Below, in pieces: positions 1,388 to 20,625 of a stretch of DNA of 26,422 bases. This DNA is from a virus, in the IMG/VR virus record IMGVR_UViG_3300031569_000033, positions 1 to 26,422 of that record. One strand, given 5' to 3'. The notes under the pieces are model-generated. The model was not told where the DNA came from, made no database searches, and saw only the letters and a list, made by a program, of their open reading frames with translations. Positions within the stretch are counted from its first letter, which is position 1. Each line of letters opens with the position of its first letter. The translations under genes were made by a program, and so were the position numbers.

Positions 1388-4300
1388 ATGTCATCCACAG
1401 ATAGACAAAACAGATTATTAGTAGCAGAGGATTGGAAACGTATATATCAGACGTATAACAACGCTGATTTTAAATCATACGACTTTGATAATCTCCGCAG
1501 AACTATGATCTCGTATTTGAGAGAGAATTATCCAGAGGACTTTAATGATTACATTGAAAGTTCAGAATACCTTGCAATAATTGATCTTATTGCATTTTTA
1601 GGACAAAACCTTGCATTTAGAATTGACTTAAATGCTAGAGAAAATTATTTAGAATTAGCTGAACGTAGAGAGTCGGTATTACGTCTTGCACGTTTGCTTT
1701 CATACAATCCTAAACGAAATATTGCTGCTAACGGTTTACTTAAAATTGAAAGCGTAAGAACTACTGAAACGCTTTTAGATAGCAATAACTTTAATTTAGA
1801 ACAACAAACAATTTTGTGGAACGATCCGTCTAACCCAGACTGGAACGAGCAATTTACAAAAGTTTTAAACTCTGCATTACCAGTTAATGGAACTTTTGGC
1901 AGACCAGTCAAAAAAGAAGTTGTAAACGGAGTACCTACACAACAATACAGATTTAACAGTACAAATGCTGATGTTCCTGCATATAGCTTTTCAAAACCTG
2001 TAGACGGCTCAACAACAAGATTTGAAATTGTGTCAACAGATATTTCCGATGGTGCTATTTTAGAAGAATCGCCCTTTCCGGGAAACAACTTTGCATTTTT
2101 ATATAGAGACGACGGACGTGGCCCAGCAAGTTCAAACTCGGGGTTCTTTTGTCACTTTAGACAAGGTACGTTAGATCAAGGAACATTTAACGTATCTAAT
2201 CCTAGTAGTAATCAAACTGTAGCAGTTGATGCAACAAATGTAAACAACACAGATGTTTGGCTCTACAAATTAGACAGTTTTGGAAATGAAGTCGAACAGT
2301 GGACTAAAGTAGAAGCTGTTGAAGGCAACAATGTAATTTACAATAGTTTGTCAAAAAATATTAGAAATATTTTTAGTATATTAACTAGAATTGACGACAG
2401 AGTAAGTTTAATATTTTCCGATGGCGTGTTTGGCAATTTACCTCAAGGCAACTTTAGAGTTTACTATAGAACTAGTAAAAATCAAAGACTTGTTGTAGAT
2501 CCTAAAGATATGCGTGGCATAAGCATAGATATACCGTATGCGTCAAGAACAGGAAAAATTGAAACTATATCAATAACCTATAGTTTACAAACTACAGTTG
2601 ATAATGCAACAGTATCTGAAACTAATGCTAATATACGTCAACGTGCTCCAGCTACTTACTATACACAAAATAGATTAGTAACCGGCGAAGATTATCAAAT
2701 TGGACCGTTGGGAGTAAGCCAAGAAATTATAAAAACTAAATCAGTTAATAGAACTGCAAGTGGCATTAGTAGATATTTTGATTTATTAGATGCTACTGGA
2801 AAATATAGCAAAACTAACCTGTTCGGTACAGATGGTGTGCTGTATAAAGAATTTACAACTAATAAAGAAAAATTTACATTTGTTACACAGACTGATGTTT
2901 CGGGAGTAATACTTAATAATATAACTCCGATATTATCAAGTAAGCAAATGAGAAATTATTACTTTGTAAAATTTCCAAAAACTGACACAAGTGATTTGAA
3001 TATTACTTGGGTACAATCTTCTTCGGATACAAATTTAAGTACAGGCTATTTACAAAACGTAAACAGCATTAAACAGTTATTGGGAACATTTACAACTAGC
3101 ATTTTAAAACTAATACGTCCCGGCACAAGTTTGAAATTTAATGCACCTGCAGGCAAACATTTTATGCCTGACGGTACTTTAATGGACGGCGAAGCAACTC
3201 ATTTAAATTCAAGATCTTACAAATGGGTTAAAGTAATAAGTGTATCAGGAAACGGAACCGAAGTGAGTGCAACAGGAACAGGTCCTGTTACGTTTAATGA
3301 TATTATTCCTAGCACTGCAAAACTAGTTGAAATTAAACCATTCTTAGCTAAAAATTTACAAACGGATGTGCAAGCACAACTTACTGATCAAATTTTTGCT
3401 TATAAGACATTTGGTTTAAGATTTGATATTAATTTAGGTCAATGGCGTATAATTACAGAAACTAATTTAAACGTTACTGGAGCATTTAATACAGGTAAAA
3501 CTGGTGACAATACTAATCAACAATTAGATGCAAGTTGGTTGTTAAAGTTTACAAATGACGGCGAAACATATACTGTTGAATCAAAAGGCAGTAGATATGT
3601 GTTTGAAAGCGATCAAGAAATAAGATTCTATTTTGATAGTAGTGACAAAATATACAACAGCCTTACAGGAAAAATAGTTAAAGATAAAATTGGTGTATTA
3701 AACAATAATAATAAACCTGATAGTGTTAATAGTTTCACAGTTGACATGGATTGGGAAATTACAAAAGAATATCGAGACGTTGAAGGATATGTAAACAGTA
3801 AAAAAGTTGAAGTTACATTCTTTGATGAAGACGACGATGGAGTAGTTGACGATCCTGAAATTTTTGATGTTATTGTTGATGAAGATATTAACCCATTAAC
3901 CAAATACGTGTTTCAGAAAAAACTTGTTACAACTGACGGTGTCGAAGATTATAATTATGTAGACAATGCAGTTGAAGGCATTCTTATAAAACTAAACGAA
4001 GATACAGTAGGTGCGCTAAGTGCTTATAATAATAATCAAATTTTTTACTTAACTAACACAGAAGTTTTTAAGAAATACGATTCGTCTTTGGGAACACTAA
4101 CATTAATAACAGATTATAAAGCACATATAGGCAGAGATAAACTTAAATTTCAATATGTACATGCTGCTGACGATAACACTCGAATTGATCCTAGTTCAAG
4201 TAATATAATTGATACGTATTTGCTTACTAGAACATATGATACAAGTTATAGAAAATATCTAGACGGTACAACAATAACAAAACCGTTAACGCCGTCTAGT

Positions 4301-4873
4301 GATAGTTTATTCCAATCATATGGTGCTGAAATTAATAAAATAAAATCATTAAGTGACGAAGTTATATATCATCCTGTAAAATATAAAGTTTTATTTGGAG
4401 CCAATGCTACTTTAGATTTACAATCATCTTTTAAAATTGTAAAGAATCCAGAGTTAGTATTAAATGATAACGATATTAAATCAAGAGTAATTAGTGCAAT
4501 CAATGAATTTTTTGCATTAGAAAATTGGGAGTTTGGCGATATCTTCTATTTCTCAGAACTTTCGACATATGTAATGAATCAATTATCACCTGACGTAGTA
4601 ACATTCTTAATTGTTCCTGCGCAAGTATCACAATCTTTTGGTTCGTTATACGAAATTAAATCAGAATTAGATGAAATTTTTATAAGCGGAGCAACTGTTG
4701 ATAATTTAGAAATAATAGATGCTATAACAGCAACTAAAATTAGTGCATCAGGAACTGTTGTAACAAGTTCTATAACAGCAAACACAGGCATTACAAGTTC
4801 AAGTAGTTCAAATACAGGGATTACAAGTTCAAGTAGTTCAAACAATAGCAGTAGCGGAGGTAGTAGTTACTAA
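1388..4873 (+). CDS. gp6: gp6-like baseplate wedge protein, enlarged
   Basis: A protein of 1161 residues against about 660 in T4 gp6. The N-terminal domain is typical: FDNLRRTMISYLRENYPEDF and YLAIIDLIAFLGQNLAFRID at residues about 35-80, then AERRESVLRLARLLSYNP. The central RQRAPATYYTQNRLVTGEDY (417-436) is the gp6/J-type signature. Residues about 1000-1085 (INEFFALENWEFGDIFYFSE) form the C-terminal dimerisation-type domain. The extra length lies mainly between residues about 450 and 1000 and in a Ser/Thr-rich tail after residue about 1115. Residues 813-824 match the EF-hand calcium loop. gp6 forms the inner ring of the baseplate and clamps neighbouring wedges. The start is set by AAGGAAG, about 5-7 nt upstream. 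The stop overlaps the next start (TAATG). Confidence 0.92.
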   Translation: MSSTDRQNRLLVAEDWKRIYQTYNNADFKSYDFDNLRRTMISYLRENYPEDFNDYIESSEYLAIIDLIAFLGQNLAFRIDLNARENYLELAERRESVLRLARLLSYNPKRNIAANGLLKIESVRTTETLLDSNNFNLEQQTILWNDPSNPDWNEQFTKVLNSALPVNGTFGRPVKKEVVNGVPTQQYRFNSTNADVPAYSFSKPVDGSTTRFEIVSTDISDGAILEESPFPGNNFAFLYRDDGRGPASSNSGFFCHFRQGTLDQGTFNVSNPSSNQTVAVDATNVNNTDVWLYKLDSFGNEVEQWTKVEAVEGNNVIYNSLSKNIRNIFSILTRIDDRVSLIFSDGVFGNLPQGNFRVYYRTSKNQRLVVDPKDMRGISIDIPYASRTGKIETISITYSLQTTVDNATVSETNANIRQRAPATYYTQNRLVTGEDYQIGPLGVSQEIIKTKSVNRTASGISRYFDLLDATGKYSKTNLFGTDGVLYKEFTTNKEKFTFVTQTDVSGVILNNITPILSSKQMRNYYFVKFPKTDTSDLNITWVQSSSDTNLSTGYLQNVNSIKQLLGTFTTSILKLIRPGTSLKFNAPAGKHFMPDGTLMDGEATHLNSRSYKWVKVISVSGNGTEVSATGTGPVTFNDIIPSTAKLVEIKPFLAKNLQTDVQAQLTDQIFAYKTFGLRFDINLGQWRIITETNLNVTGAFNTGKTGDNTNQQLDASWLLKFTNDGETYTVESKGSRYVFESDQEIRFYFDSSDKIYNSLTGKIVKDKIGVLNNNNKPDSVNSFTVDMDWEITKEYRDVEGYVNSKKVEVTFFDEDDDGVVDDPEIFDVIVDEDINPLTKYVFQKKLVTTDGVEDYNYVDNAVEGILIKLNEDTVGALSAYNNNQIFYLTNTEVFKKYDSSLGTLTLITDYKAHIGRDKLKFQYVHAADDNTRIDPSSSNIIDTYLLTRTYDTSYRKYLDGTTITKPLTPSSDSLFQSYGAEINKIKSLSDEVIYHPVKYKVLFGANATLDLQSSFKIVKNPELVLNDNDIKSRVISAINEFFALENWEFGDIFYFSELSTYVMNQLSPDVVTFLIVPAQVSQSFGSLYEIKSELDEIFISGATVDNLEIIDAITATKISASGTVVTSSITANTGITSSSSSNTGITSSSSSNNSSSGGSSY
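3824..3859 (+). other. EF-hand-type calcium loop in gp6
   Basis: Residues 813-824 read DEDDDGVVDDPE. They fit the 12-residue loop consensus: acidic residues at positions 1, 3, 5 and 9, Gly at 6, a branched hydrophobic at 8 and Glu at 12. The flanks look like beta strands (VEVTFF, IFDVIV) rather than helices, so this would be an isolated calcium loop and not a paired EF-hand domain. Metal binding is inferred. Confidence 0.55.
4781..4840 (+). repeat. Tandem 30-nt direct repeat in the 3' end of gp6
   Basis: Two head-to-tail 30-nt copies (4781-4810 and 4811-4840) differ at two positions and encode NTGITSSSSS twice. A weaker related unit precedes them around 4761-4780. They form the core of a Ser/Thr/Gly tail, probably a flexible linker, and look like a recent slippage duplication. 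Confidence 0.85.
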
Positions 4874-4875
4874 TG
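4856..4875 (+). promoter_or_regulatory. GGAGGT RBS and TAATG stop/start overlap
   Basis: GGAGGT at 4856-4861, inside the last codons of gp6, precedes the giant gene's ATG by 11 nt. The gp6 stop TAA (4871-4873) shares its last A with that ATG (4873-4875). This implies translational coupling between gp6 and the giant protein. The RBS encodes part of the Gly/Ser tail of gp6. Confidence 0.65.
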
Positions 4876-7800
4876 GCATACGACAAAGATCAAATGGAGC
4901 CAGCACTTCCAGGTGGCGATGATAGCATTAGAAGAAAAAGCGAAAATCACTTACCTAGATATTTCAGAACTTCACACAACTCTAAATTTTTATCTAGCAC
5001 ACTTGACCAGTTAATACAACCGGGAGTAGCAGAAAAGTTAAACGGCTATCTTGGACGTAAAGTTAGTAAAGCATTTAAGCCTACAGATAATTATATTGGA
5101 GCAGTTACTAGCAGTAGAGAACAATATCAACTTGAGCCTGCGGCAGTTATTAAAGATAACTTAGGTAATGTTACCTATTATAAAGACTATAATGATTATA
5201 TAAACACTGTAAGTAATCTTGGCGGAAGTGTAACAGATCATAGTAGACTAAACACTCAAGAAACATATGCTTGGAACCCGCATATTGATTGGGACAAGTT
5301 TACAAATTATAGAGAATACTATTGGCTACCTAATGGCCCTGACCTAGTGACAGTTATAGGACAAACAAAAGATGTTATTAGTACATACACTGTTGCCTTA
5401 GGACAAAATGTTGATAATGTAACATATGTATTTTCACCCGACGGTCTAACAAATAATCCAACGTTGAAACTATATAGAGGCCAGACTTATAGATTTGAAA
5501 TTGACACACCAAATCATCCTATGGCGTTTGCAACAAAGAAAAGTTTCACACCTGGCGAAGCAGTAGTTATTGAAACTACAGATGGTGTTCGTAGTTCAGG
5601 CGTATTTGATGTTGTCTTGTATGATCAAGACGGTACAGCATATGATGCTGGCGGGTTTATTATAGATCCTGTAACTCAAGCACAGGCAGTTGGAAGTGTA
5701 AGTTTTGGAGATGCAACTAATACTAGTTTAATATATGATACTGGTATTTCTAAGGTTGACGCTGACGGTAACGCACTTGCTACAGTCTATATTGAAAAAG
5801 GTATCATAGAATTTACAATACCGGATACTGCTCCAGATGCATTATATTACATTTCAAAAAATGATCCTAATGTAGCAGGATATATGCAGATCTTTGACAT
5901 TGAAGATAATACTGCTATTAATGTCGAAGCAGACATTTTAGGTAAAAAAACTTATACTACTAGTAACGGGTTTGCCTTGTCAAATGGCATGAAAGTAGAG
6001 TTTGCTGGAGAAGTTACGCCTGTAAAATATGCCTCTAATGAATGGTATGTTGAAGGTGTTGGCGACAAAATAAAATTAGTGCGCCAATCAGATCTAACAG
6101 TTAGTGGATCATTTACTGACGATATTTCTGTACCCTTTGACGCCCAAGGATTTGACTTTTATCCATTTAGTGATGCAATAGGATATCCTACTAAAAAAGA
6201 TTATATAGTTATTAACCGTGCAAGTTTAGATGGAAATCTATGGAGTAGATACAATAGATGGTTCCATAAATCTGTTGTCGAAACAAGTAATACGTTAAGC
6301 AATAATCCGTCAACAATACTAGAAGACTCTAGAGCAAAAAGACCAATTATTGAATTTAATCAGGGTTTAAAATTATTTAATTTTGGAACAAAGTCTAAAA
6401 CAGATGTTGATTTAGTAGATACCTTTACAACAGATATATTTTCTACTATTGAAGGTAGTGCAGGATACAATGTTGACGGAGTGAATCTTACTAACGGAAT
6501 GCGTGTATTATTCACAGCAGATACAGATGACTTAGTAAGTGGAAAGATTTACAAAGTAAGTTTTATTACTTTTAGGAACAACATCCAAATATCATTAGTT
6601 GAAGAAACAGACACTCCTCCAGTTACTAATGAAAACGTTTTTGTAAAATTTGGCACAGTTAATGGCGGAAAGTTTTTTAGTTATAACGGAACTACGTGGA
6701 CAGTAAGTCAACAAAAAACTTCAATTAATCAACAACCGTTATTTGACATGTACGATGCTAAAGGAAATGCGTTTAGTAATACAACTAACTATAATTCAAC
6801 AACGTTTGCTGGTAATAAGATATTTGCATATAAAGTTGGTACAGGAACTAATGATGCAGAATTAGGATTTCCGCTTTCGTATAGAAATATAACAAATACT
6901 GGTGATATAACATTTGACTTTGCATTAACTGGTAATACATTTACATACCAAGTTGGCACTGTACTTTATACATCTAAAACAGAAACAGGGTTCTTAAGAA
7001 AGTATTCTACAATTGATACTTTTGAATATACGAATGGATGGCTCAAAACAGCTAAACTAAGTAACCAGCCTGTAATCAGACAATACATATACGATAATAC
7101 AACTGATAACTTCTATATAGACGTTTATAATAATGTTGATTACATTACTAACTTGTGGTTAACAGTTTACTTAAACAACAAACTGCAATTCAAAGATGTT
7201 GACTACACTGTTGCGCAAGACGTAAACGGAGTTTCATATATTACATTTGCAAATAGTCTTACTACAGATGATGTAATTGTTTTAAAAACAAAAAGTAAAT
7301 ATCCTAAGAACGATAATGGATATTATGAAATAGCTAAAAACTTAGAGCGCAATCCGCTTAACGATGATATTACGGAATTTACTCTAGGTGAAGTTAATGA
7401 TCACGTATCTACAATAGTTGAAGAAATTAATAATTTTTCAGGAGTATTTCCTGGACCAAGTAACTTGCGTGATATAGGAAATTTATCAGCTAACGGCAAA
7501 AAGTTTTTAAAACATAGTGGTCCTATAAATTTAGCAATGTATCATTTAGTTGACCCTCAAGCAAACATTGTAAAATCAATGCGTTATGCTAGAAGAGAAT
7601 ACGGCAAGTTTAAAAGACAATTTTTAGAAACTGCAAACACCTTAGGCTTTGAAGGTCCAGTTAAAGAACACGTAGATAATATATTAAAAGAAATGAACAA
7701 AGATAAAACGTCTAGTATGCCGTTTTACTTTAGTGACATGATTCCACAAGGCGGTTCTGTAAAAACTACCCATGCTGTATTAGATTCAGATGAAAGATAT

Positions 7801-10800
7801 TTTCCATTAAGTGCAACATTTTCAATGTCGGTGCTTAGTAGAAAAGCAGTACAGATATACTTAAATGGAACACAATTAACTCACGGTAAAGATTATACAT
7901 TTAACTCAGAAGGATTTGCTGATGTAACTGCAACAAAGGCAGTCGGCGATGCAATTGATGTATACGAGTATGATAGTACTAATGCAAGTTTTGCTCCACC
8001 TACTCCTACAAAGCTAGGATTATATCCAGCATATCATCCTCAAATTTATACAGATAATACTCCGGTAGTTCCTGTAACAGTAATTGAAGGTCACGACGGT
8101 AGTAAATTTGTTGGGTATGACGACTTTAGAGACAATTTATTATTAGAATTAGAATTAAGAATTTATAATAATATTAAGATTTCTTATGATACTAATATTT
8201 TTGACATACATAATCTTTTACCAGGCAAAGATAGAGACACTGGATTTACACGACAAGAAATAAATTCTTCAATGACAGCTGATTTCTTACAATGGAATCA
8301 ATTAGTTGACGGAGATTATGTTTCAAATTCTGGCTTTGATAGAAATAACGCATTTACGTTTAATTATTCTAGCACACGGTATAAAAATGGTACACAGAAT
8401 TTACCAGGTCATTGGCGCCAGACTTATATGTATGCGTTTGATACTGATCGCCCACACACCCATCCTTGGGAAATGCTAGGCTTTACAATTAAACCAACTT
8501 GGTGGGAAACAACATACGGACCTGCGCCATACACCCGCAATAATAAAGTGTTGTGGCAAGATTTAGAGCAAGGCATAGTTAGAGAACCTAAAAAGTCAAT
8601 TGTAGTGCGCTCTAAGTATATACGTCCTGGTTTACAAACTACTATTCCTACAGATGACGGCGGAAACCTTTTAAGTCCAAACGCATCGGGCATTTTAGAT
8701 AATTTTAATTCTGAATATGTTACAGATAACTGGGTAGTCGGAGACGGTGGCCCAGTTGAGTCGGGTTGGAGACGTAGCAGCGAATATCCGTTTAGTTTAA
8801 TAACAGCTTATATACAAAATCAACCAAATGCAATTTTTGCTGCAGGATTTGATAGGTCTAGACAAAAAAGAAACTTAGCAAATCAAATTGTGTACGGTGA
8901 TTCAGGCGTTTCAATTAAACTTAGTAATATTGTATTTCCAAATACGATCGACGATACTTCACAGATTTTTACTAGTGGACTTATAAATTATATTTCAAAT
9001 TATTTAAGTAGTAACACTGCTGCTTCGTATACAAAATATAAACAGAATTTGGTTGCAATTAAAAATCAAATAGGTAGTAAAATTGCAGGATACACTGATA
9101 AAGAAAAATTTAGATTAATACTTGACTCTCGCACACCTACTAATGAAGGCAATGTCTTTATACCCAAAGAAAATTACAATTTAATTCTAAACACTAGTAG
9201 CCCTATACAAACTGTTAGTTATAGTGGTGTAATGATCGAAAAACAAGCCGAAGGGTATGTTATAAGAGGTTATGATAACTTTGTACCTAATTTTAAATAT
9301 TATAAAAGAATAGTACGAACAAATGATCCTATAATAAATGTTGGCGGCATATCAGAATCGTTTGTTAATTTTGATAGTGACAAAACATACTCTGTAGGAC
9401 AAATAATAAAAACTGGCGAGTCGTTCCTGAGAGTAACAACAACTCATATTAGTAGTACAAATATAGATGCTAGTAAATTTGCAACTATTCCTGAACTTCC
9501 GTTAATTGGCGGAGCAGTTGCTTCAATGCCACGAGTGTTTGAAGATACATTAAGTACTTTAAATTATGGCGACAAATTATCTACGTTACAAGATGTTGTT
9601 GACTTTTTATACGGCTACGGAAAATATCTAACAGACCAAGGATTTGCTTTTGAAGAACGCATCGAAGGGTCAAACGAAGTAGCGAACTGGCCAACAAGTG
9701 CAAAACAGTTTATGTTCTGGACTACACAAAATTGGGCAGCAGGAACTTTAATAACTATATCTCCTGGTGCAAAAAAATTAAAACTACAGTCTAGTTATAG
9801 TGTTGTTGATAACATATATGATACTTTTTACGGATATAGTATTTTAAAAGGTGACGGGAAAAAATTAAACAGCGAGTATATACGTATTGCAAAAGGTGTA
9901 GAAAACGAATGTACTGTAACTGTTGTTAATTCAGCAGACGGCATTTTTGCTGCAAGATTTCCATTAGTTCAAAAAGAACATGTATTACTTTTAGATAATA
10001 AAACAGTGTTTAATGATGTAATTTATGATCCAGCTCCTGGTTATAGACAAGAACGAATTAAAGTATTAGGTTATCGTACTGATAACTGGAACGGCAGTTT
10101 AAATATTCCTGGCTTTATATATGATAATGCAAATGCTGTTGAGTGGGAAGCCTGGTCAGATTATACTATTGGCGATCTAGTTAAGTACAAAGAGTTTTAT
10201 TATAGTGCAGATAAGAAAGTTACAGGCACGCAATTATTTAATGCAGATGATTGGAATAGATTAGATAAAAAGCCAGAAGCTGGCTTACTAACAAACTTTG
10301 ATTACAAAATTAATCAGTTTGCAGACTTTTATGATTTAGATAGTGACAATTTTGATACAGAGCAACAACGATTAGCACAGCATTTAATTGGATATCAGAA
10401 ACGAACTTACTTAGAAAATATTATTAATGACGATGTAAGTCAATATAAATTTTATCAAGGGTTTATTTTAGATAAAGGTTCTAAAAACTCTCTTACTAAA
10501 TTATTTGATGCTCTTGCTAGTGCTGATCAAGAAAGTTTAGAATTCTTTGAAGAGTGGGCAATTAAAGACGGTCAGTATGGAGCAAGTGAAGGCTTTGAAG
10601 AAGTTGAATACTTGCTTGACGAAACGCAGTTTAGATTAGATCCACAACCAATTCTATTAACTGATACTGGCACTGGACAGGAAACTGATTTAGTTTATAG
10701 AATAAAAGACCACGAAACTTATTTAAAAAGCAATAACTACGATCATTCACCATTCCCTACAAAGTATATTCAAAAAGGATATACAAAGGACTCAGGATAT

Positions 10801-13800
10801 GTAAATCCTAAAGATGTTGATCTAGTTGTTTCTACATATAATGACATTGCTAATAAAAACTTTGACGATATTAATAGTCAAGATTATGTATGGGTCGGCA
10901 ATGTTAATCAATCATGGTCTGTTTATCAACATGTTATTACAGACTACATAATCGAAGCAGTAGAAACATCAGCAGGTGAATTTACAATTACTGTTAATGC
11001 AACTCCGCTAGATATAAGCACTGGTGATGTGTTAGGTTTATTTAATTTACTTATAAAAACATATGCACCGGGTCAGTTTGACAGCGCACTAGACTTAACA
11101 CAAACAGTAAGTCCGATTAAAGGTTTTTACAAAGTTAAATCTGTAGCACTAAACAAAATTACATTTGAAACTACTGAAACTATTGTAGCAGTAGAGGAAT
11201 GTGAAGGTAAATTAAGTAAATTTATTAGTGTTAGAGTTGGCAATTTATCCGAAGCTAATACACTAGCTGAACAAGAAATAGATGCAGAAGAAAAATTGTG
11301 GATAGACAATGCAGGAAATGACAAATGGTTAGTTTTACAAAATAAAAACAAGTTCAATGTCCAGCAAGAATTGTCAAATAGCGAAACAGGCACAGACCAC
11401 AACTATGGAACATCGATTGCAGTTGATGACAGAAATGTTAGATTAGCTGTAGGTGCTCCTGACTTAGGTGACAATGGTAAAGTGTTTGTATACAATAGAT
11501 CAAGCAATGCTTTAAATTATACATTGTCGCAAGTATTAGATCCAGAAGCAAACATTACTGCTACAGGTCAAAAATACGGGTATGATGTGTCAATGAGTGG
11601 CGATGGAGAATATATCATTGTTGGCGCCCCGTATGCATCTAATGTAAAAACAAACTTTAAAAATGCATTTAGCACTACTGCTAATTACGCTGCTGGTGAC
11701 ATAGTTAGTTTAAATAACGGCTTATGGCAAGCAGACGATGCAATTTTAGGTGCAGTATCAAATATTACGTTTAATAGCTTTGATAGTGTAGCACAGATAA
11801 ATTATGATATTAATAATTATACCCAAGATGCAGTAGATATTCCAGTAATATTAACTGGCGACTATCCTTTTAAAAATATAACTACTGATCATTTCTTATT
11901 ACGTGCTCCTAAAGCAATGTATGACGGTTCAGGACAGGGTGATCAAATATATTTAAGATGGAACAGCCTTGCTAATGCTAATCAAACACAGATTAACTTA
12001 ACTACACGGGCGCCGTTTGATGGTAGTATTCCGTACTTGTCAAAAGAATACTTAGAATCAGAACATACCATTAGTTATAAAATTGATGCAATATTATATA
12101 TTGACGCATCTAACAATATACCAGCTGTTGGTGATATAGTTACTACACAAGGAGCAACAGCAACAGTTGTTTATGTACATAATGAATCAGCTCAGTTAAC
12201 AATTTATGTTAATAATATAAACGGTGAATTTCCATTAGAAAACAGTTTGTTTATAAATGGAAACGATTTTATAGGCGAATATCAGCGCATAGGACCAAAC
12301 GAATCCATAACTACAACTGGTTCATGGGGCGGCTATTGGTTCATTCAATCAAGTAATCCTTATGCTGTAGGAAGCACTAATGCAGATGCTGGTAGATCTT
12401 TAGTGTTTAAAGACTTTGTATCAATATCCGATGTAGCTACAGATAGTACGTTAGACGGATATTACTATAACAGTTTAGATTATGCAACTAGTATACAAAA
12501 TAGCGAAAGCGTAATTAATAGTTTTATTCAAACGTTAAGTTTTACCGGCACTCCGGGACCATTAGGAAGTTCAACTCCTGTAGTAAGTAGAAAATTTGTT
12601 GTACGGGCTCCTAAACTATTATCAGATGCTTCTTCAGCAGGTGAAAAGTTTACACTCTATTTAAATAATTTACCAGATACTGTAACAACAGTAAAATTTG
12701 ATTCATTGTTATCAATCGGCGCTGGAGAAATTATTACACAGGCTGTTACAGGTGCAACGGCAGTAGTGTTAGAAAATACAACTAGCAGTTATACAGCAAA
12801 AGTTAATAGCATTACTGGATCGTTTGATTTAATTAACTTATTATCATTTAGTTCCAGCGGTAATCTTGGTATTAAACTAACAGAATTGCCAGTGCAATCA
12901 TTTATATCAGATCCTAGTGCTATAGGATTAAATTTTAGTGCTACTAATAAAGAGCACACTATTGACGATATATGGGACGGATATATTTCATTTGTTAATA
13001 CAAAGTTTTTAAATGGCGAACCTTTTGAGCCTATTGTAGGCCAAACAGTTAGAGATAAATCAACTCAGGCTACTGCTGAAGTAGCGTATTATCAAAGAAG
13101 TTTAAATAATGTAACAATATTTGTTAAAAATGTTTCAGGTAACTGGAGTTTAGGTAATCAATTCGGTAACAACGCTGAAATAGAAATGATGCCATATGCT
13201 CCAGGACCAAACCCAGACGTCTATGGCCGTAGCGGAATTTACACTATTCCAAGAGTAATGGGTCAAATACAGCGTGTTAACTTAGGCACTGATTCAGCAG
13301 GTATTGGTAAGTTGTTTGTTGTAGATACAAACGCAAATATTACTGCACCAGCCGGCGATTTTAGAACTGCTTCACAGCTTGGTGCAAAAATTGTTAACAA
13401 TTCATTAACTGGAGACTTTGCATACTTAGAACCAGATACTAATTTTGAATACTGGATGTATAAGCAAACTGTAATTAATGGCATTCCGCGTTCTGCAAAT
13501 ACTCCGACGAGTGATAACCTAGATTGGACTGAAGTCTATAAAGTTCCTACAGCGTCAACCGGCAGTATTGGTGATACTCCATTTACAAACGAGGGAATTT
13601 ACTACATATACCAAAAAAATAATGGCGGCATTTATATCAGCCTAGGTAGTTTTGTTGGACCAGAAAGACAGTCTAATAATTACTTAGGTTCTATAGTAGA
13701 AGTTACTAAAAGTGCAACCGGAATTTACAGAGGATTTGTTAGTGCGCCAGCAGACACAACAGTATCTAATCCTGGAAAGATTTATTTCTTAAAGAATGGA

Positions 13801-16800
13801 ACAGAAAACGGCATTTTGTATAATTGGGAATATGCTAAAAATAAAAATTACAAAGGCGAATTTAATGCTTCGTCTAGTTATTTTACAGGAAATATTGTTT
13901 CATTAGATGATAAATTGTACAATGCTGTTACAAATATTACAGCAGGTACGTTTAATGCATTACAGTGGAATAGCACAGATGATTTAATTGACTATGTAGG
14001 GTATGTTCCAAATGACACCGGCGTTAGTATTATAAACGACAGTAGTTATGATCTTAGTACAGTATTAGATCAAGGGCTATTGTACGATTTCGCAAATAGC
14101 TTTGATGTTACGCCTGATGGTGAAGTGTTAATTGTAAATGCTAAGTATGGCAACGGAAAACCTAACTTAGTTGTTGTTTATAGAATCTTAAACGGACAAT
14201 ATCAGCGCTCACAGCAACTTACTTCGCCTAGCAATACAGAAGCATTCGGCGAAAGTATTGCTATTAGTACTGATGGTAAATTAATTGCAGTATCGGCTCC
14301 GTTAGACGATACTAATAAAAATAATCAAGGCAAGGTTTATATTTACAAAAAGGTAAATGAGATATTTGTATTCTCTCAAACACTAATGAGTCCTAACAAT
14401 AAGACTTCTCAGTTTTTTGGAGACAAGATTGATTTTGACGGCAACAGATTAGTTGTAAATTCTAAAAACGGCAACAACTGGGTTGATACAACTTTTGATG
14501 TTTATTCATCACCTACTGGCGTTGGATATACATTAGATAAAACTAGTACAAAAAATCTTTCTAGTACAGTGTTTGATAACGATTTTACAACATACAAAAA
14601 ACAATATGAACAACAAGGTTCTATATATGTGTATGAAGTTATAAATGACACACTAATGTATGCACAGCAACTACAATATCAAAATACAACTAGTGCTGTT
14701 ACTGAATTCGGTAAAGACTTTAAACTTAAAAACAACCATGTTTATGTTGGATTGCCTAAAGTAAGTGTAAATGCTGTGTACACCGGTAGTGTTATTGACT
14801 TTAGAATACCTGACAATAAAATGATTTGGGAAACTTTAAGACAGCCAAAAGACGCTGTAGATATTTCAAAAATTAAACGTGCAATTTTATATAATGTAAA
14901 AACAAATAAGTTACTTACATATTTAGATTATATTGACCCAGTACAAGGAAAAGTTGCAGGACCAGCTGAACAAAATCTTACATATAAAACATATTACGAT
15001 CCTGCATATTATACTGTAGGGGATAATAACGTAACTGTTATGCCCTCAGCAAGTTGGGGAGCAGAACAAGTTGGCGAACTGTGGTGGAATCTTACAAATG
15101 CAAAATACTTAAATGCGTATCAGTCAGATGTTATATTCTCAGCAAATAACTGGAGTCAGTTATTTGATAGTAACACAGTTGATGTCTACGAATGGGTAGA
15201 GTCTGATGTATTGCCTAGTGTGTGGAATAGCCAAACTAACCAAACTGCCGCAGTTGTAGATGGTATAGATGGTACCAGTTTATATGCTGATACAGTTTAT
15301 TCATCTAGACAAACATATGATAAAATAAGTGGCACGTTAGGTATTAAGTATTACTTTTGGGTTAAAAACAAGCGAACAATGCCCGATGTAGATTTTAGAA
15401 CAATAAGCTCGTTTGATGTTGCAAAATTAATTGAAGACCCTAAGGGACAAGGATATAAATTTGCGGCACTTATTTCAGAAAATAGTTTCACATTATATAA
15501 CTGTGAAAGTTTGTTAGAAAATAAAGATGTTGCATTTAGTTTACAGTATTGGACTATTGATAACCAAGATATAAACATTCATAATCAGTATCAAATTGTA
15601 ACTGACGGACTTTCAACAAGTAAACCTAATAGAGATATTGAACGTAAGTGGTTTGATAGTCTAGTAGGTTATGATGAGCAAAGTAAACAGGTACCTTCAC
15701 CAAATTTATCACCTAAACAAAAATACGGAATTTTAAATAGCCCAAGACAGAGTTGGTTTGTAAATAGCGCCGAAGCTCTTAAACAAGTGATGGAAAGAGT
15801 AAATGCCGTATTACTAGAAAATTTAATAATTGATAATAAAGATCTTACAAAGATCAAAGCATCAGCCCTGCAACCTAGTGTAGTAAGTAGGGAGTTTGAC
15901 ACAACTGTTGATACTGTTGCAGATTTAGAGTTTATTGGTGTTGCAAAGGCACAGCAAGCAACTATGCAGTTAACAGTTAACGACGGTGTAATTACAAATG
16001 TTGTTGTATTAAATGCAGGCCGCGGTTACCTTGTTGCTCCTACGTATAAAATTGTAGGAACAGGAACAGGTGCTGAATTAGAGTTTACAATAAACAATTT
16101 AGGTGTTATAACAAATGTAAGTGTAGTCAACGGCGGAACAAACTATAGTTCAACTGCCGTAATTACAATTAGAAGATACACAGCACTAGTAAAAACTGAC
16201 GAAACTATATTAGGTAAGTGGGCTTTATATGAAAGAGATAGTACAGCAAGAATTTGGCAACGAACAGCAAGCCAATCATACGATGTAACATTATTTTGGG
16301 ATTATATTGATTGGTATGCAACCGGTTACACTCAATTTACAGAGACAAATTTTGTAATTGAGGGAGCATATCAACTACCAAGTATTAATGATACAATTGG
16401 GGACGTTGTTAAGATAAACAATGTTGGCTCAGGCGGTTGGCTATTACTTAGAAAAATAACTAACCAGGCTAATGTAGATTATACAATTAACTATGAAACT
16501 ATTGGTAGACAGAATGGTACTATTAAATTTAAGAATACACTCTACGACACAACTGCAAGTGCAACTGGATTTGATATTATTAGTTTTGATTCTCAATTCT
16601 TTGACAGTGTACCTAGCACAGAAATTAGAGCTGTTTTAAATTGTATTAAACATGATCTGTTTACTGAAGAATTGGCACTTGAATATAATAAACTGTTTTT
16701 TGCAAGTTTACGTTATGTATTCTCAGAACAACAAAATGTTGACTGGGCGTTTAAGACAAGTTTTGTAAAAGCAAAACACAATGTAGGACAGCTTCGTGAA

Positions 16801-19800
16801 GACATTACGTTTAACAATGATAGTCTACCTAGTTATGAAAAATATCTAGAAGAAGTAAAGCCATTTAAAACAAAGTTACGTGAATACCTAAGTGCTTACG
16901 AAAAACTTGACAACAGTCAAAGTAGAGTTACAGACTTTGATTTACAGCCGATATATAATGACACTACAAAACTAATAGAACCGCAAAATGTAAAAGTAGT
17001 TGGCGATACATTAATTGGTATAAATGATTCTTTAGAAACATATCCGTTTAAAAATTGGACAGATAATGTTGGATTTAAAGTAACAGAAATACAAATAGCT
17101 AATGGCGGATCAGGGTATACACAGGCACCTACTATTAAATTAACAGGCGGTGGCGGCACTGGTGCTACAGCTATTGCTAAATTAGGAGTAAACGGAACTG
17201 TAACAAGTGTAGAAGTTACAAATAAAGGAAGTAGTTATATTACTGCTCCTACATTAATGTTAACTGGCAGTGTATCTGAAACAGGTAAAAATGCAAAACT
17301 TAGTGTTATCCTAGGAGACGGATTAACAAGAGGAATGCTAAACGTAGTAAAATTTGATAGAGTAAGCGGTGATTATTCTATTACTAGTATTAATGAAACA
17401 GAAACATTTACAGGCACTGGCTCCAAGTACATTTACGAACTAAAATGGCCAATGGATCTTAAAACTACAAACGTTACTGTAACTGTAAATAACATTGAAC
17501 TTTTAAGAAGTGAATATAGCTTTATTAATATAAAAGATAGTACCACAACAAGTTATACTAGGTATCATGGAAAAATTACACTTGCAGAACCAACACCTGT
17601 TAACACTTCTATTGTTATTACTTACAAAAAAGCAATTAGCTTATTAACAGCACAGGATAGAATAAACATTGCGTACAATCCTGTAACAGGTCAATTTGCA
17701 AAAGACCTTGGACAGTTAATGGACGGGGTTGACTATGGCGGAGTAGAAGTTAAAAGTTTCGACTTTGGCGGCCCTACAGGCTGGGATACAGCCCCTTGGT
17801 TCACTAGCGAGTATGATACTTACGACCAAACTTTTGAAGATGAAACGTTTACTTTAGATGGTAGTACAATTAGTGTTACATTAGCTACGCCTTTAGAAAG
17901 CGGAGTTGTATATAACTTATACAAAAATGGTGTAAGATTAGATGACCCAGACTGGGTAAATGACAGTTCGCAGTTTACAAATCCAAATGCCGTAATGAGA
18001 AGTATAACAGGTGATGGAGTACAAACATTAATTGAGTTAGATGAATTAGGTATATCTAATGGAGCAAATGATGTTATAGTTATACGTAAGAGTACTAGCG
18101 ATGGAAGTTTCCTTCCTGTTCCAGGAACGTATGACACACTTATTGAAGGCGGCGCCTTAGAATACAATACTGCTAAAGGCATACTTGCAGAAGAAATTAA
18201 TATTGACGGTGACGGGTTTGCAACAACTGCTAACAGCGGCGGCCCAGACGAGAATCTGCCAGGCAGAGTATTTGACACAGTTGATATAAAGGTTTATGAA
18301 AGGCCTACGGGCGGATCTAGTAAAATACATTCAAGAAATTACGTAGGCGACGGTACAACTACAGATTATGATATTGGAACAACCCCTATATTAGACGAGC
18401 TAGTATTTGTAAAAGTTAATAATGTTATACAAACAGCATACACTATTGATTATGAAACTAACAAAGTTAAATTTACTACTGCACCAACATTAGCATCTAA
18501 AATTAATCTTGTAACTCTAGACTATAGTGGTACAAACATATTAGACTTAGATGAATTTATATCGGATGGTAGTACAGCTGATTTCTTAACAAACATTACA
18601 CATACTCCTAATTTAAGTAGTTTAGTTACTATTGACGGTAAAAAAGTTGAGCATGTTCTTACAAAAAGTAACAACACATATGCTGCAGAAAATAGAATTG
18701 TTATCCGATTTGCAGAACCTCCTAAGATTGATGCTGTAGTAAAATATGCAATTTTTGAAGGACCTATACAAAACTTTAGTGCAGTGACTATAGACGAGTT
18801 TATTGCTGATGGTAGCACGATATTGTTTGATCTTACACAAACACCGTTTACACAAAAGCCACATGAATGGTTTACTATTGTACAAGTAAACAACACAATA
18901 TTAAATGCAGGATATTCTCAAAAATATGTTATGACAGAGTCAAGAGAATATCAGTTAAAGCTATGGCAAGTACCTACAGGTTCTGTAAGGTCAGGACAGT
19001 TAAGAATTTACTTAAACGGTCAAAAAATTAACTATATTGACGATTGGTCATTTACAAGTGCAGGTCAGTATAATTCTGCATTAGACGCTGACGATCAACT
19101 AGGTAGTGCGGTATTGTTAAATGCCAGTGTTGGAGCACCTGGTGACATCTTAAGAATATATATTGTAGGACAAGAAGACAGTACTGCCGCAGGCGGAGAT
19201 TATAGATATGGTTACTTTGACAACGACAATAACTTTGTAGAAGATGACGGAAAATTATCTATCTATTCTACTTTGTCAAACGGTGACAAGGTTAAAGTTT
19301 ACCAGTTTAGTAACCACGACACTCAAGGTATTGAACGACAGAGTTTAGATGTTGTTGAGCGTACACTACTATCCCCAGGTGTTGCAGCTAACAGACAGGT
19401 ATTTGAAATTGACGGAAGCACAGCAAATTTAAATTTATTACCGCCACTGGCAGCTAGAAAGCAATATGCAGTATATTTAAATAATACAAGAATTGACGAT
19501 CCAAATTACAATACTGCACAGCAAACAAACGACAACGCAGTACTATTAACAATTACTGGAGCAGAGCAAACTATTTTTGATGCGCAAGCAACAGGACTTG
19601 TTCTTATTACAGGTGATATTTTAGAAATTGTAGAACTTGGTGCTAGTGTTACTCCTGACAGCGGTACAGCTGACTGGTATGAACTAAGACAACTAAGAGC
19701 TGGGTATATAAATTTACAAAGTCCAGCAGTTGACGATCAGTACGTTTGGGTTGTTAAAAACGGAACCTTATTAGATCCATCAGTTGACTATGTTGTTACT

Positions 19801-20625
19801 CCTAATAAAATGCGTATTAAGTTAAAAGAAAACTTAGATGAGAACGACACTGTTGAAACTTTCCATTTTGCAAAAGAAACTTTGAAAAATAAGTTTGGAT
19901 GGCGACAATTTAAAGATATATTAAACAGAGATATCTATAAGAGATTAGATGGTAGACAAAATTACAGATTATCTGAACCATTAGCATTTAATGATAAGGT
20001 AATTACAGTAGATAATAGTACTAATTTACCTGACCCAGTTCCAGGATCAAAGTATCCGGGTGTAATATTTGTTGACAATGAACGTATAGAATACTTTAGA
20101 AAGACTGGTAATACTCTTGGACAGCTAAGAAGAGGAACATTGGGTACTGGAATTAAATCAATTTATTCTGTAGGCACAGAGCTGTATGATCAAAGTCAAA
20201 CAGCAACTATGCCATATAAGGACGAAGTATTAACAAGTACATTTACAGCTGATGGTACATCAGCAGCTTATGATCTTGACTTTACTCCTGCTAGTGTAAA
20301 CGAGTTTGAAGTATTTGTTGCAGGTCGTAGACTAAGAAAAACAGCATTAGAGTCGTATCAGTTAGATACAACGTTGCGTACAACATATGCAACATCGACA
20401 GAACAAATTAGTCAAGATTCTCCATTAGGAGATGTAACTTTACCAGCAGAGTTTAGCATACAGAACAGCAACGAATTAGTGTTGCTAGAAACACCAGGAG
20501 TAAATCAAAAGGTAATAGTAATAAGAAAACAAGGTAGAATATGGAATGTTCCAGGCACAGCGTTAAGTAATGCAGAATCCGACATTAGTAGATTCTTAAG
20601 ATCAGCAACGGTTGACTTACCCTGA
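4873..20625 (+). CDS. Giant modular virion structural protein (5250 aa), probable outer baseplate
   Basis: One uninterrupted ORF of 5250 residues (roughly 0.58 MDa at 110 Da per residue). It lies directly after gp6, where T4 encodes gp7 and the other outer baseplate proteins. No catalytic domain, signal peptide or membrane helix is evident. Modules in order: N-terminal conserved region with LPRYFRTSHNSKFL and NYREYYWLPNGP (1-158); degenerate cupredoxin (197-345); RPIIEFNQGLKLF region (458-516); helical segment with AMYHLVDPQANIV (870-955); KPTWWETTYGPAPYT region (about 1194-1220); carbohydrate-binding-like units (1499 and 1757); conserved helical core with AQHLIGYQKRTYLENI (1814-1930); interrupted FG-GAP propeller (2177-3298); GSGY repeats (3702-3766, 4070-4132); DGST-type beta modules (4326-5170); RIEYFRKTGNTLGQLRRGTL near 5071-5090. 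Several of these motifs recall very large structural proteins of marine T4-like phages. The exact gp number and function are not established here; a wedge, fibre-network or adhesin scaffold role is inferred. Confidence 0.8.
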   Translation: MAYDKDQMEPALPGGDDSIRRKSENHLPRYFRTSHNSKFLSSTLDQLIQPGVAEKLNGYLGRKVSKAFKPTDNYIGAVTSSREQYQLEPAAVIKDNLGNVTYYKDYNDYINTVSNLGGSVTDHSRLNTQETYAWNPHIDWDKFTNYREYYWLPNGPDLVTVIGQTKDVISTYTVALGQNVDNVTYVFSPDGLTNNPTLKLYRGQTYRFEIDTPNHPMAFATKKSFTPGEAVVIETTDGVRSSGVFDVVLYDQDGTAYDAGGFIIDPVTQAQAVGSVSFGDATNTSLIYDTGISKVDADGNALATVYIEKGIIEFTIPDTAPDALYYISKNDPNVAGYMQIFDIEDNTAINVEADILGKKTYTTSNGFALSNGMKVEFAGEVTPVKYASNEWYVEGVGDKIKLVRQSDLTVSGSFTDDISVPFDAQGFDFYPFSDAIGYPTKKDYIVINRASLDGNLWSRYNRWFHKSVVETSNTLSNNPSTILEDSRAKRPIIEFNQGLKLFNFGTKSKTDVDLVDTFTTDIFSTIEGSAGYNVDGVNLTNGMRVLFTADTDDLVSGKIYKVSFITFRNNIQISLVEETDTPPVTNENVFVKFGTVNGGKFFSYNGTTWTVSQQKTSINQQPLFDMYDAKGNAFSNTTNYNSTTFAGNKIFAYKVGTGTNDAELGFPLSYRNITNTGDITFDFALTGNTFTYQVGTVLYTSKTETGFLRKYSTIDTFEYTNGWLKTAKLSNQPVIRQYIYDNTTDNFYIDVYNNVDYITNLWLTVYLNNKLQFKDVDYTVAQDVNGVSYITFANSLTTDDVIVLKTKSKYPKNDNGYYEIAKNLERNPLNDDITEFTLGEVNDHVSTIVEEINNFSGVFPGPSNLRDIGNLSANGKKFLKHSGPINLAMYHLVDPQANIVKSMRYARREYGKFKRQFLETANTLGFEGPVKEHVDNILKEMNKDKTSSMPFYFSDMIPQGGSVKTTHAVLDSDERYFPLSATFSMSVLSRKAVQIYLNGTQLTHGKDYTFNSEGFADVTATKAVGDAIDVYEYDSTNASFAPPTPTKLGLYPAYHPQIYTDNTPVVPVTVIEGHDGSKFVGYDDFRDNLLLELELRIYNNIKISYDTNIFDIHNLLPGKDRDTGFTRQEINSSMTADFLQWNQLVDGDYVSNSGFDRNNAFTFNYSSTRYKNGTQNLPGHWRQTYMYAFDTDRPHTHPWEMLGFTIKPTWWETTYGPAPYTRNNKVLWQDLEQGIVREPKKSIVVRSKYIRPGLQTTIPTDDGGNLLSPNASGILDNFNSEYVTDNWVVGDGGPVESGWRRSSEYPFSLITAYIQNQPNAIFAAGFDRSRQKRNLANQIVYGDSGVSIKLSNIVFPNTIDDTSQIFTSGLINYISNYLSSNTAASYTKYKQNLVAIKNQIGSKIAGYTDKEKFRLILDSRTPTNEGNVFIPKENYNLILNTSSPIQTVSYSGVMIEKQAEGYVIRGYDNFVPNFKYYKRIVRTNDPIINVGGISESFVNFDSDKTYSVGQIIKTGESFLRVTTTHISSTNIDASKFATIPELPLIGGAVASMPRVFEDTLSTLNYGDKLSTLQDVVDFLYGYGKYLTDQGFAFEERIEGSNEVANWPTSAKQFMFWTTQNWAAGTLITISPGAKKLKLQSSYSVVDNIYDTFYGYSILKGDGKKLNSEYIRIAKGVENECTVTVVNSADGIFAARFPLVQKEHVLLLDNKTVFNDVIYDPAPGYRQERIKVLGYRTDNWNGSLNIPGFIYDNANAVEWEAWSDYTIGDLVKYKEFYYSADKKVTGTQLFNADDWNRLDKKPEAGLLTNFDYKINQFADFYDLDSDNFDTEQQRLAQHLIGYQKRTYLENIINDDVSQYKFYQGFILDKGSKNSLTKLFDALASADQESLEFFEEWAIKDGQYGASEGFEEVEYLLDETQFRLDPQPILLTDTGTGQETDLVYRIKDHETYLKSNNYDHSPFPTKYIQKGYTKDSGYVNPKDVDLVVSTYNDIANKNFDDINSQDYVWVGNVNQSWSVYQHVITDYIIEAVETSAGEFTITVNATPLDISTGDVLGLFNLLIKTYAPGQFDSALDLTQTVSPIKGFYKVKSVALNKITFETTETIVAVEECEGKLSKFISVRVGNLSEANTLAEQEIDAEEKLWIDNAGNDKWLVLQNKNKFNVQQELSNSETGTDHNYGTSIAVDDRNVRLAVGAPDLGDNGKVFVYNRSSNALNYTLSQVLDPEANITATGQKYGYDVSMSGDGEYIIVGAPYASNVKTNFKNAFSTTANYAAGDIVSLNNGLWQADDAILGAVSNITFNSFDSVAQINYDINNYTQDAVDIPVILTGDYPFKNITTDHFLLRAPKAMYDGSGQGDQIYLRWNSLANANQTQINLTTRAPFDGSIPYLSKEYLESEHTISYKIDAILYIDASNNIPAVGDIVTTQGATATVVYVHNESAQLTIYVNNINGEFPLENSLFINGNDFIGEYQRIGPNESITTTGSWGGYWFIQSSNPYAVGSTNADAGRSLVFKDFVSISDVATDSTLDGYYYNSLDYATSIQNSESVINSFIQTLSFTGTPGPLGSSTPVVSRKFVVRAPKLLSDASSAGEKFTLYLNNLPDTVTTVKFDSLLSIGAGEIITQAVTGATAVVLENTTSSYTAKVNSITGSFDLINLLSFSSSGNLGIKLTELPVQSFISDPSAIGLNFSATNKEHTIDDIWDGYISFVNTKFLNGEPFEPIVGQTVRDKSTQATAEVAYYQRSLNNVTIFVKNVSGNWSLGNQFGNNAEIEMMPYAPGPNPDVYGRSGIYTIPRVMGQIQRVNLGTDSAGIGKLFVVDTNANITAPAGDFRTASQLGAKIVNNSLTGDFAYLEPDTNFEYWMYKQTVINGIPRSANTPTSDNLDWTEVYKVPTASTGSIGDTPFTNEGIYYIYQKNNGGIYISLGSFVGPERQSNNYLGSIVEVTKSATGIYRGFVSAPADTTVSNPGKIYFLKNGTENGILYNWEYAKNKNYKGEFNASSSYFTGNIVSLDDKLYNAVTNITAGTFNALQWNSTDDLIDYVGYVPNDTGVSIINDSSYDLSTVLDQGLLYDFANSFDVTPDGEVLIVNAKYGNGKPNLVVVYRILNGQYQRSQQLTSPSNTEAFGESIAISTDGKLIAVSAPLDDTNKNNQGKVYIYKKVNEIFVFSQTLMSPNNKTSQFFGDKIDFDGNRLVVNSKNGNNWVDTTFDVYSSPTGVGYTLDKTSTKNLSSTVFDNDFTTYKKQYEQQGSIYVYEVINDTLMYAQQLQYQNTTSAVTEFGKDFKLKNNHVYVGLPKVSVNAVYTGSVIDFRIPDNKMIWETLRQPKDAVDISKIKRAILYNVKTNKLLTYLDYIDPVQGKVAGPAEQNLTYKTYYDPAYYTVGDNNVTVMPSASWGAEQVGELWWNLTNAKYLNAYQSDVIFSANNWSQLFDSNTVDVYEWVESDVLPSVWNSQTNQTAAVVDGIDGTSLYADTVYSSRQTYDKISGTLGIKYYFWVKNKRTMPDVDFRTISSFDVAKLIEDPKGQGYKFAALISENSFTLYNCESLLENKDVAFSLQYWTIDNQDINIHNQYQIVTDGLSTSKPNRDIERKWFDSLVGYDEQSKQVPSPNLSPKQKYGILNSPRQSWFVNSAEALKQVMERVNAVLLENLIIDNKDLTKIKASALQPSVVSREFDTTVDTVADLEFIGVAKAQQATMQLTVNDGVITNVVVLNAGRGYLVAPTYKIVGTGTGAELEFTINNLGVITNVSVVNGGTNYSSTAVITIRRYTALVKTDETILGKWALYERDSTARIWQRTASQSYDVTLFWDYIDWYATGYTQFTETNFVIEGAYQLPSINDTIGDVVKINNVGSGGWLLLRKITNQANVDYTINYETIGRQNGTIKFKNTLYDTTASATGFDIISFDSQFFDSVPSTEIRAVLNCIKHDLFTEELALEYNKLFFASLRYVFSEQQNVDWAFKTSFVKAKHNVGQLREDITFNNDSLPSYEKYLEEVKPFKTKLREYLSAYEKLDNSQSRVTDFDLQPIYNDTTKLIEPQNVKVVGDTLIGINDSLETYPFKNWTDNVGFKVTEIQIANGGSGYTQAPTIKLTGGGGTGATAIAKLGVNGTVTSVEVTNKGSSYITAPTLMLTGSVSETGKNAKLSVILGDGLTRGMLNVVKFDRVSGDYSITSINETETFTGTGSKYIYELKWPMDLKTTNVTVTVNNIELLRSEYSFINIKDSTTTSYTRYHGKITLAEPTPVNTSIVITYKKAISLLTAQDRINIAYNPVTGQFAKDLGQLMDGVDYGGVEVKSFDFGGPTGWDTAPWFTSEYDTYDQTFEDETFTLDGSTISVTLATPLESGVVYNLYKNGVRLDDPDWVNDSSQFTNPNAVMRSITGDGVQTLIELDELGISNGANDVIVIRKSTSDGSFLPVPGTYDTLIEGGALEYNTAKGILAEEINIDGDGFATTANSGGPDENLPGRVFDTVDIKVYERPTGGSSKIHSRNYVGDGTTTDYDIGTTPILDELVFVKVNNVIQTAYTIDYETNKVKFTTAPTLASKINLVTLDYSGTNILDLDEFISDGSTADFLTNITHTPNLSSLVTIDGKKVEHVLTKSNNTYAAENRIVIRFAEPPKIDAVVKYAIFEGPIQNFSAVTIDEFIADGSTILFDLTQTPFTQKPHEWFTIVQVNNTILNAGYSQKYVMTESREYQLKLWQVPTGSVRSGQLRIYLNGQKINYIDDWSFTSAGQYNSALDADDQLGSAVLLNASVGAPGDILRIYIVGQEDSTAAGGDYRYGYFDNDNNFVEDDGKLSIYSTLSNGDKVKVYQFSNHDTQGIERQSLDVVERTLLSPGVAANRQVFEIDGSTANLNLLPPLAARKQYAVYLNNTRIDDPNYNTAQQTNDNAVLLTITGAEQTIFDAQATGLVLITGDILEIVELGASVTPDSGTADWYELRQLRAGYINLQSPAVDDQYVWVVKNGTLLDPSVDYVVTPNKMRIKLKENLDENDTVETFHFAKETLKNKFGWRQFKDILNRDIYKRLDGRQNYRLSEPLAFNDKVITVDNSTNLPDPVPGSKYPGVIFVDNERIEYFRKTGNTLGQLRRGTLGTGIKSIYSVGTELYDQSQTATMPYKDEVLTSTFTADGTSAAYDLDFTPASVNEFEVFVAGRRLRKTALESYQLDTTLRTTYATSTEQISQDSPLGDVTLPAEFSIQNSNELVLLETPGVNQKVIVIRKQGRIWNVPGTALSNAESDISRFLRSATVDLP
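5461..5907 (+). other. Degenerate cupredoxin-like domain in giant protein
   Basis: LYRGQTYRFEIDTPNHPMAF (residues 200-219) is the opening half of a cupredoxin-like fold and keeps the first His ligand (H215). TIPDTAPDALYYISKNDPNV (315-334) is the closing half. Against the usual LYYYCxxHxxMGG, the Cys, His and Met ligands are replaced by S328, D331 and V334. About 95 residues separate the halves, longer than usual. The fold is likely structural without copper. Confidence 0.55.
9367..9513 (+). other. CBM5/12-like unit 1 in giant protein
   Basis: Residues 1499-1547 follow the pattern of chitin-binding-type CBM5/12 and many phage fibre modules: TYSVGQIIKTGESFLRV, then a Thr/Ser/Asp stretch. The final Trp of the typical module is absent. 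Carbohydrate binding is not demonstrated. Confidence 0.35.
10141..10275 (+). other. CBM5/12-like unit 2 in giant protein
   Basis: Residues 1757 to about 1801 give the best match of the four: W(S/D)DYTIGDLVKYKEFYYSA followed by FNADDWNRL, that is an opening Trp, Y-x-x-GD-x-V, an aromatic pair and a closing Trp. It lies just before the conserved helical core. Confidence 0.45.
10312..10662 (+). other. Conserved helical core of giant protein
   Basis: Residues 1814-1930 are predicted helical and charged: FADFYDLDSDNFD, AQHLIGYQKRTYLEN, YKFYQGFILDKGSKNSL, FFEEWAIKDGQYGA, then LDETQFRLDPQPIL. Of the whole ORF this part looks most like a conserved, non-repetitive domain and I recall it from other marine T4-like giant structural proteins. 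It would be the best probe for homologues. Confidence 0.5.
11662..11745 (+). other. CBM5/12-like unit 3, inserted after propeller unit 2
   Basis: Residues 2264-2291 include FSTTANYAAGDIVSLNNGLW, resembling Y-x-x-GD-x-V-x-x-x-x-x-(Y/W). It follows immediately after the second propeller unit. Confidence 0.4.
11896..13167 (+). other. Internally duplicated beta-rich insertion
   Basis: Within the propeller insertion, LLRAPKAMYDGSGQGDQIYL (from residue 2342) pairs with VVRAPKLLSDASSAGEKFTL (from 2576). A second unit, VGDIVTTQGATATVVYV with LTIYVNNINGEFPL (2419-2456), recurs as a diverged copy at 2616-2660 and as VGQTVRDKSTQATAEVAYY with VTIFVKNVSGNWSL (2722-2762). Copies one and three are each preceded by EHTI. 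The function is unknown. Confidence 0.6.
13849..13986 (+). other. CBM5/12-like unit 4, inserted after propeller unit 3
   Basis: Residues 2993 to about 3038 include YKGEFNASSSYFTGNIVSLD, DKLYNAV and a closing ALQW. This is the same pattern and the same relative position (after a propeller unit) as unit 3. Confidence 0.45.
15976..17269 (+). other. Two blocks of GSGY-type glycine repeats
   Basis: Block one (residues 3702-3766) has VVVLNAGRGYLVAPTYKIVG, then VSVVNGGTNYSSTAVITI. Block two (4070-4132) has IQIANGGSGYTQAPTIKLTG, then VEVTNKGSSYITAPTLMLTG. Each block holds two half-repeats of a beta module common in phage and bacterial surface proteins. The region between them (3767-4069) is non-repetitive. 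Confidence 0.65.
17848..20382 (+). other. C-terminal DGST-type beta modules
   Basis: At least six units start with F-x-x-DG-(S/T)-T or a close variant, followed by hydrophobic strands and a V-x-V-(N/D/A)(N/G)-x-x-(L/I) strand: residues about 4326, 4490, 4562, 4643, 4844 and 5124. Units 4326 and 4844 are closer to each other than to the rest: NGVRLDDPDW against NNTRIDDPNY, each followed by NAV and SITG or TITG. They look like stacked Ig-like fibre domains. Confidence 0.6.

Follow-up and report, generated by a model that had tools for sequence, protein, structure and literature searches.

Does the acidic loop of a baseplate protein encoded in an IMG/VR virus record bind calcium and, if so, as an EF-hand or as a site of another kind? 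The window analysed here, the whole stretch of 26,422 nucleotides at positions 1 to 26,422 of record IMGVR_UViG_3300031569_000033, had received a first-pass annotation that placed a perfect EF-hand-type calcium loop inside an enlarged gp6, where it could stabilise the wedge in seawater or sense ions during infection.

The protein and its relatives

The loop belongs to a protein of 1161 residues that is, by sequence and by core fold, a T4 gp6-type baseplate wedge subunit. Its reading frame matched phrog_10646 (baseplate wedge subunit) at E 7e-293 and, more weakly, phrog_219 at E 4e-19, and a Foldseek comparison of its AlphaFold2 model retrieved T4 gp6 (5iv5_B, E 1.2e-12) together with Klebsiella KP1 gp6 (E about 1e-12). 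Alignment of the model with T4 gp6 by VIA gave Z 14.0 over 452 residues, at an rmsd of 15.4 that marks a loose whole-chain fit. The gene also stands in the order typical of the T4 gp6 family, gp25, gp6 and then a large structural protein:

884-1336, upstream of gp6: GPW_gp25 (gp25)
1388..4873, + strand: gp6-type baseplate wedge protein, 1161 aa, from phrog_10646, phrog_219 and Foldseek

The same arrangement, a small ORF at the place of gp25 followed by gp6 and a long ORF, was found in 10 of 11 named relatives, the exception being SCTP-2, in which the ORF after gp6 has 1362 bases. Homologues have been found in virions: CBB_237 of phage CBB, named gp6, was detected by mass spectrometry with 13 peptides, as reported in PMC5259590, and the database record of the PA5oct homologue gp354 is marked ESI-MS/MS, that is, as a virion protein.

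A tblastn search with gp6 returned 63 phage records, 51 of them covering at least 80% of its length and all below 60% identity; they include RaK2-type giant phages, Agrobacterium phage Atu_ph07, Sinorhizobium phage Phosso, Pseudomonas PA5oct-like phages, Salicola SCTP-2, Vibrio phage 2.275.O and others. As gp6 measures 970-1319 aa across the 16 named phages examined, its enlargement is a trait of this clade and not of marine phages. The description of the protein as about twice the length of T4 gp6 was right as to enlargement and generous as to extent (1161 vs 660 aa, or 1.76-fold). The clade that carries the inserted loop domain is a large one, made up of mostly giant contractile-tailed phages.

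Several minor features of the locus and its relatives were recorded. The ORF directly 3' of gp6 (window 4873-20625) encodes 5250 aa and has matches to phrog_10938 (virion structural protein), FG-GAP_2 and CBM_5_12; it also contains a shorter NIDGDG stretch. By a crude script, 118 of the 124 loci with 2 kb downstream had, right 3' of gp6, a long ORF that continues past the end of the locus. One contig (L003:2935-6417) carries gp6 pieces 100% identical to those of the window, where an in-frame stop leaves two ORFs, one of 914 codons and one of 262; the stop is either a sequencing error or a real variant. The C-terminal tail of gp6 (residues about 1129-1161, window about 4772-4870) is serine-rich, of low complexity and of low pLDDT, variable among close relatives and missing from the named giant phages aligned.

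The insert and the fold around the loop

The loop was said to lie in the extra region of the enlarged protein, and profile and fold comparisons agree in placing it where T4 gp6 has no counterpart. With hhalign, T4 gp6 aligned only to residues 28-441 of the window protein (probability 40%, E 3e-4). Residues 193-360 of a phage Mu protein aligned over 158 positions (rmsd 3.1), spread across residues 427-1108 of the model, so that some 500 residues appear to be inserted; the insert separates two core strands that neighbour each other closely in T4 gp6. T4 gp6 shares its core fold and its place in the wedge with the window protein, but has no equivalent of the loop-bearing insert of roughly 480 residues. 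The features discussed below are:

2759..4201, + strand: insert, about residues 458-938, with approximate limits estimated from hhalign and fold comparison
3461..4123, + strand: loop-bearing part of the insert, residues 692-912, folded alone with AlphaFold2
3791..3820, + strand: beta strand entering the loop, residues 802-811, in two AlphaFold2 models
3824..3859, + strand: Dx[DN]xDG-type loop DEDDDGVVDDPE, residues 813-824, from translation, pattern scan and conservation
3848..3850, + strand: Asp-821, loop position 9, proposed extra calcium ligand, from conservation
3860..3877, + strand: short helix after the loop, residues 825-830, in two AlphaFold2 models

The full-length AlphaFold2 model was built from 109 sequences, the window protein and 108 of 110 listed relatives (L244 and L245 were dropped), and reached a mean pLDDT of 85.6 and a pTM of 0.50. 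For the 221-residue domain, 100 sequences were used, including 99 relatives (8 of the 108 were excluded because of the length of their domain, and L336 was then dropped); its mean pLDDT was 88.5, with values of about 90-93 around the loop. In both predicted models strand 802-811 leads into the loop and helix 825-830 follows it (block pLDDT about 84-93), so that the loop sits between regular secondary structures, as Dx[DN]xDG loops do.

Searches by profile and by fold for solved relatives of the loop domain gave none that was confident over the loop, which is no evidence of a new fold. Among the fold matches listed, coverage is concentrated on residues 862-911; in the viral model library a single entry, an uncharacterised phage protein, matched under E 0.001. 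Residues about 862-911 (window 3971-4120) bear a weak fold likeness to the collagen XV/XVIII trimerization domain and to the T7 gp12 nozzle (Foldseek prob 0.96 but E 0.58; VIA Z 5.0, 44 aligned, rmsd 1.8).

Conservation of the loop

Translation confirmed the reading of the loop itself: DEDDDGVVDDPE occupies residues 813-824 and codons 3824-3859, residue 813 starting at 3824, with D1, D3, D5, G6, V8, D9 and E12 as had been claimed. None of the nine window ORFs scanned contains another full match to the EF-type pattern. Of 20,000 shuffles of the gp6 residues, 223 (1.1%) contained the PROSITE EF-hand pattern and 163 (0.8%) contained Dx[DN]x[DN]GxxD; a narrower EF pattern had a frequency of 0.15% in shuffled sequences. 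Taken on its own, the match in one sequence is thus a mild surprise, roughly a 1% event; a chance origin of the loop is ruled out by its conservation across relatives and not by one sequence.

That conservation was assessed in 419 loci, drawn among the matches listed from six IMG/VR scans and 11 named phage records. Four of them (L070, L071, L072 and L337) yielded no gp6 ORF in the script, leaving 416 with the window included; after removal of 22 sequences shorter than 880 aa, the remaining 394 formed 179 clusters at 80% identity, all spanning the loop. Several loci represent one contig fetched twice and were merged by clustering, and the interrupted ORF of L003 was used only to its in-frame stop. 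As these relatives were gathered among the matches listed by similarity to chosen seeds, the fractions given here are descriptive and not an unbiased census.

Among the matches listed, D1 is present in 163 of the 179 clusters, [DN]3 in 156, [DN]5 in 154 and G6 in 164, followed by D9 in 166, [DN]10 in 163 and P11 in 168; Asn occupies position 3 in 34. Position 12 varies among the same clusters (E in 46, D in 71, Q in 19, N in 15 and T in 7), so that positions 1, 3, 5, 6 and 9 are conserved and positions 2, 4 and 12 are not. Conservation of the ligands in homologues was the check that the first-pass annotation had proposed for its own claim, and positions 1, 3, 5 and 9 bear the claim out, whereas position 12 does not. 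The strict core D-x-[DN]-x-[DN] is intact in 144/179 clusters among the matches listed (322/394 sequences before clustering). D9 accompanies it in all 144, and persists in 22 of the 35 clusters in which the core is lost. Those 35 clusters retain P11 without exception and F/Y14 in 34 cases; P11 and F14 therefore appear to serve the fold, and positions 1, 3, 5 and 9 resemble a ligand set. Within the clusters, still among the matches listed, Dx[DN]x[DN]GxxD occurs at the place of the loop in 134/179, compared with just two occurrences elsewhere in 208,490 residues. Synonymous GAT/GAC and GGN codons are mixed within the conserved motif.

The same pattern holds among closer relatives, since 103 of the 106 listed clusters with at least 50% identity to the window have the core together with D9 and 29 of the 106 have E12. 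On a FastTree tree built without the loop columns, the strict core changed 11 times, E12 35 times, and D/E at position 12 taken together 32 times. The co-occurrences counted above do not amount to independent events, and joint loss of ligands on independent branches gave sign-test medians of p 0.5-1, with too few informative pairs.

The loop as a probable calcium site

From the conservation pattern and the predicted models, we infer that the loop is probably a structural Ca2+ site of the Dx[DN]xDG type, located in the inserted gp6 domain. In the survey of Rigden et al. (2011; PMC3123361), such loops are described as a convergent motif occurring in 16 structural contexts, with a bias to extracellular settings. 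Their ligands are given there as the side chains of residues 1, 3 and 5 and the carbonyl of the residue after Gly, completed by at least one later acidic or amide ligand, which always lies downstream and, in calcium blades, two residues on; Asn is a usual substitution at position 3. The window loop has D1, D3, D5 and G6, and D9 supplies a further acidic residue downstream, presumably as a ligand. Since D9 stands at the calcium-blade spacing and is conserved, and position 12 is not, D9 rather than E12 is the likely extra ligand. D813, D815 and D817 would then ligate one Ca2+ through their side chains, and V819 through its backbone carbonyl, with D821 (position 9) as the extra acidic ligand; E824 may contribute in the window phage, but would be dispensable in the family. 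By tying the beta strand that ends at the loop to the short helix that follows, the ion would stiffen the insert as a structural rivet and not act as a sensor.

The proposed site can be compared with several known ones. With the Dx[DN]xDG loops of PMC3123361 it shares Asp/Asn at positions 1, 3 and 5, Gly6, the downstream acid, the flanking secondary structures and an extracellular setting, here in the virion; it differs in that its host protein is a phage baseplate wedge and its metal is putative. In the calcium blades of beta-propellers (integrin alpha and PilY1, according to PMC3123361), the extra ligand two residues after the motif corresponds to position 9 here, but the blades form a propeller, whereas the gp6 loop is a strand-loop-helix in a non-propeller domain. 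The same one-letter pattern, xDxDxDGxxD, forms a calcium-binding loop in the crystal structure of PepX from Lactobacillus helveticus, an enzyme unrelated to gp6 whose activity was not significantly affected by EDTA, as described in PMC10536834.

With the EF-hand of the calmodulin type, the gp6 loop shares its first six residues and, in the case of the window, Glu-12 as well. A true EF-hand would be a helix-loop-helix with Glu-12 as bidentate ligand, and the window loop does fit the PROSITE pattern, as part of 59/179 clusters in all that do so among the matches listed. However, the element before the loop is a strand and no helix in both predicted models, no pairing of hands is visible, and neither Glu nor Asp is conserved at position 12 in the family, although the window has E; Glu-12 itself is confined to 46/179 clusters among the matches listed, with its 35 changes on the tree. 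In a Pfam search neither the window protein nor the domain matched the EF-hand families, or any other, and EF-hand_1 matched just 1 of 100 members, at E 0.068. The EF-hand reading is rejected on the predicted fold and on position 12, and we leave it next to no probability; what endures of the earlier claim is a probable calcium loop, which would have evolved independently of EF-hands.

The main rival, which we consider unlikely, dispenses with the metal and takes the loop as an acidic turn in which Asp/Asn residues would cap the helix that comes next and form hydrogen bonds to the loop. Such a cap would suit the D9-[DN]10-P11 segment, which stands before the helix and is in part retained by clusters that have lost positions 1, 3 and 5 (D9 in 22/35 and P11 in 35/35 clusters among the matches listed), so that the fold itself accounts for some of the conservation; it leaves unexplained the spaced conservation of D1, [DN]3, [DN]5 and G6 and the presence of D9 in 144/144 listed clusters with an intact core. 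It is highly improbable that the loop serves as a regulatory switch by which calcium arms or triggers the baseplate, by analogy with lactococcal phage p2. Calcium does rearrange the baseplate of this 936-type phage, as reported in PMC3499812, and the extracellular bias of the motif would suit a switch, but the loop is well ordered between strand and helix in the predicted model, with no sign of motion, and several lineages lack it. As the virion is assembled in low-calcium cytosol, one may conjecture, under the structural reading that we prefer, that the site fills on release. An elaboration of this idea seems improbable: gp6 would fold and assemble calcium-free in the cytosol and bind the ion only at the millimolar calcium met outside, which would stiffen the insert and keep the wedge metastable, loop-less lineages using other means.

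The distribution among named phages bears on the proposed role in seawater. D1, [DN]3, [DN]5 and D9 are all present in 6/16 (Phosso, Atu_ph07, Deifobo, PA5oct, Xanthomonas XacN1 and RAS14), and the full set is missing in the other 10/16 (SCTP-2, CBB, Vibrio 2.275.O, RaK2, GAP32, PBECO4, XaC1, XbC2, Hallingskeid and Munch); Munch keeps D1, D3 and N5 and has Leu at position 9. With these 10 phages and 35/179 clusters among the matches listed lacking the full set, the ion would be dispensable in some lineages. According to their records, Phosso comes from soil and Deifobo and RAS14 from sewage, and all three keep the loop, whereas SCTP-2, from a solar saltern, and Vibrio 2.275.O, from seawater, have lost it. 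Salt is therefore no predictor of the loop, and the suggestion that it stabilises the wedge in seawater has to be abandoned, adaptation to seawater being ruled out by the named phages.

A term search of the available text of PMC3123361 found neither 'phage' nor 'virus', and among titles and abstract openings of open-licence PMC papers we found no report of calcium in gp6 of contractile phages. The contractile-phage baseplate wedge is thus a probable added setting for a convergent calcium motif counted in 16 contexts in 2011, which gives a simple reason to seek metal in solved giant-phage baseplates of this clade, or chelator sensitivity of their virions. Among the relatives without the loop, the gp6 of Vibrio phage 2.275.O (L078:1501-5361) is annotated as a carbohydrate-binding module 5/12 and, in the alignment, contains extra inserted segments.
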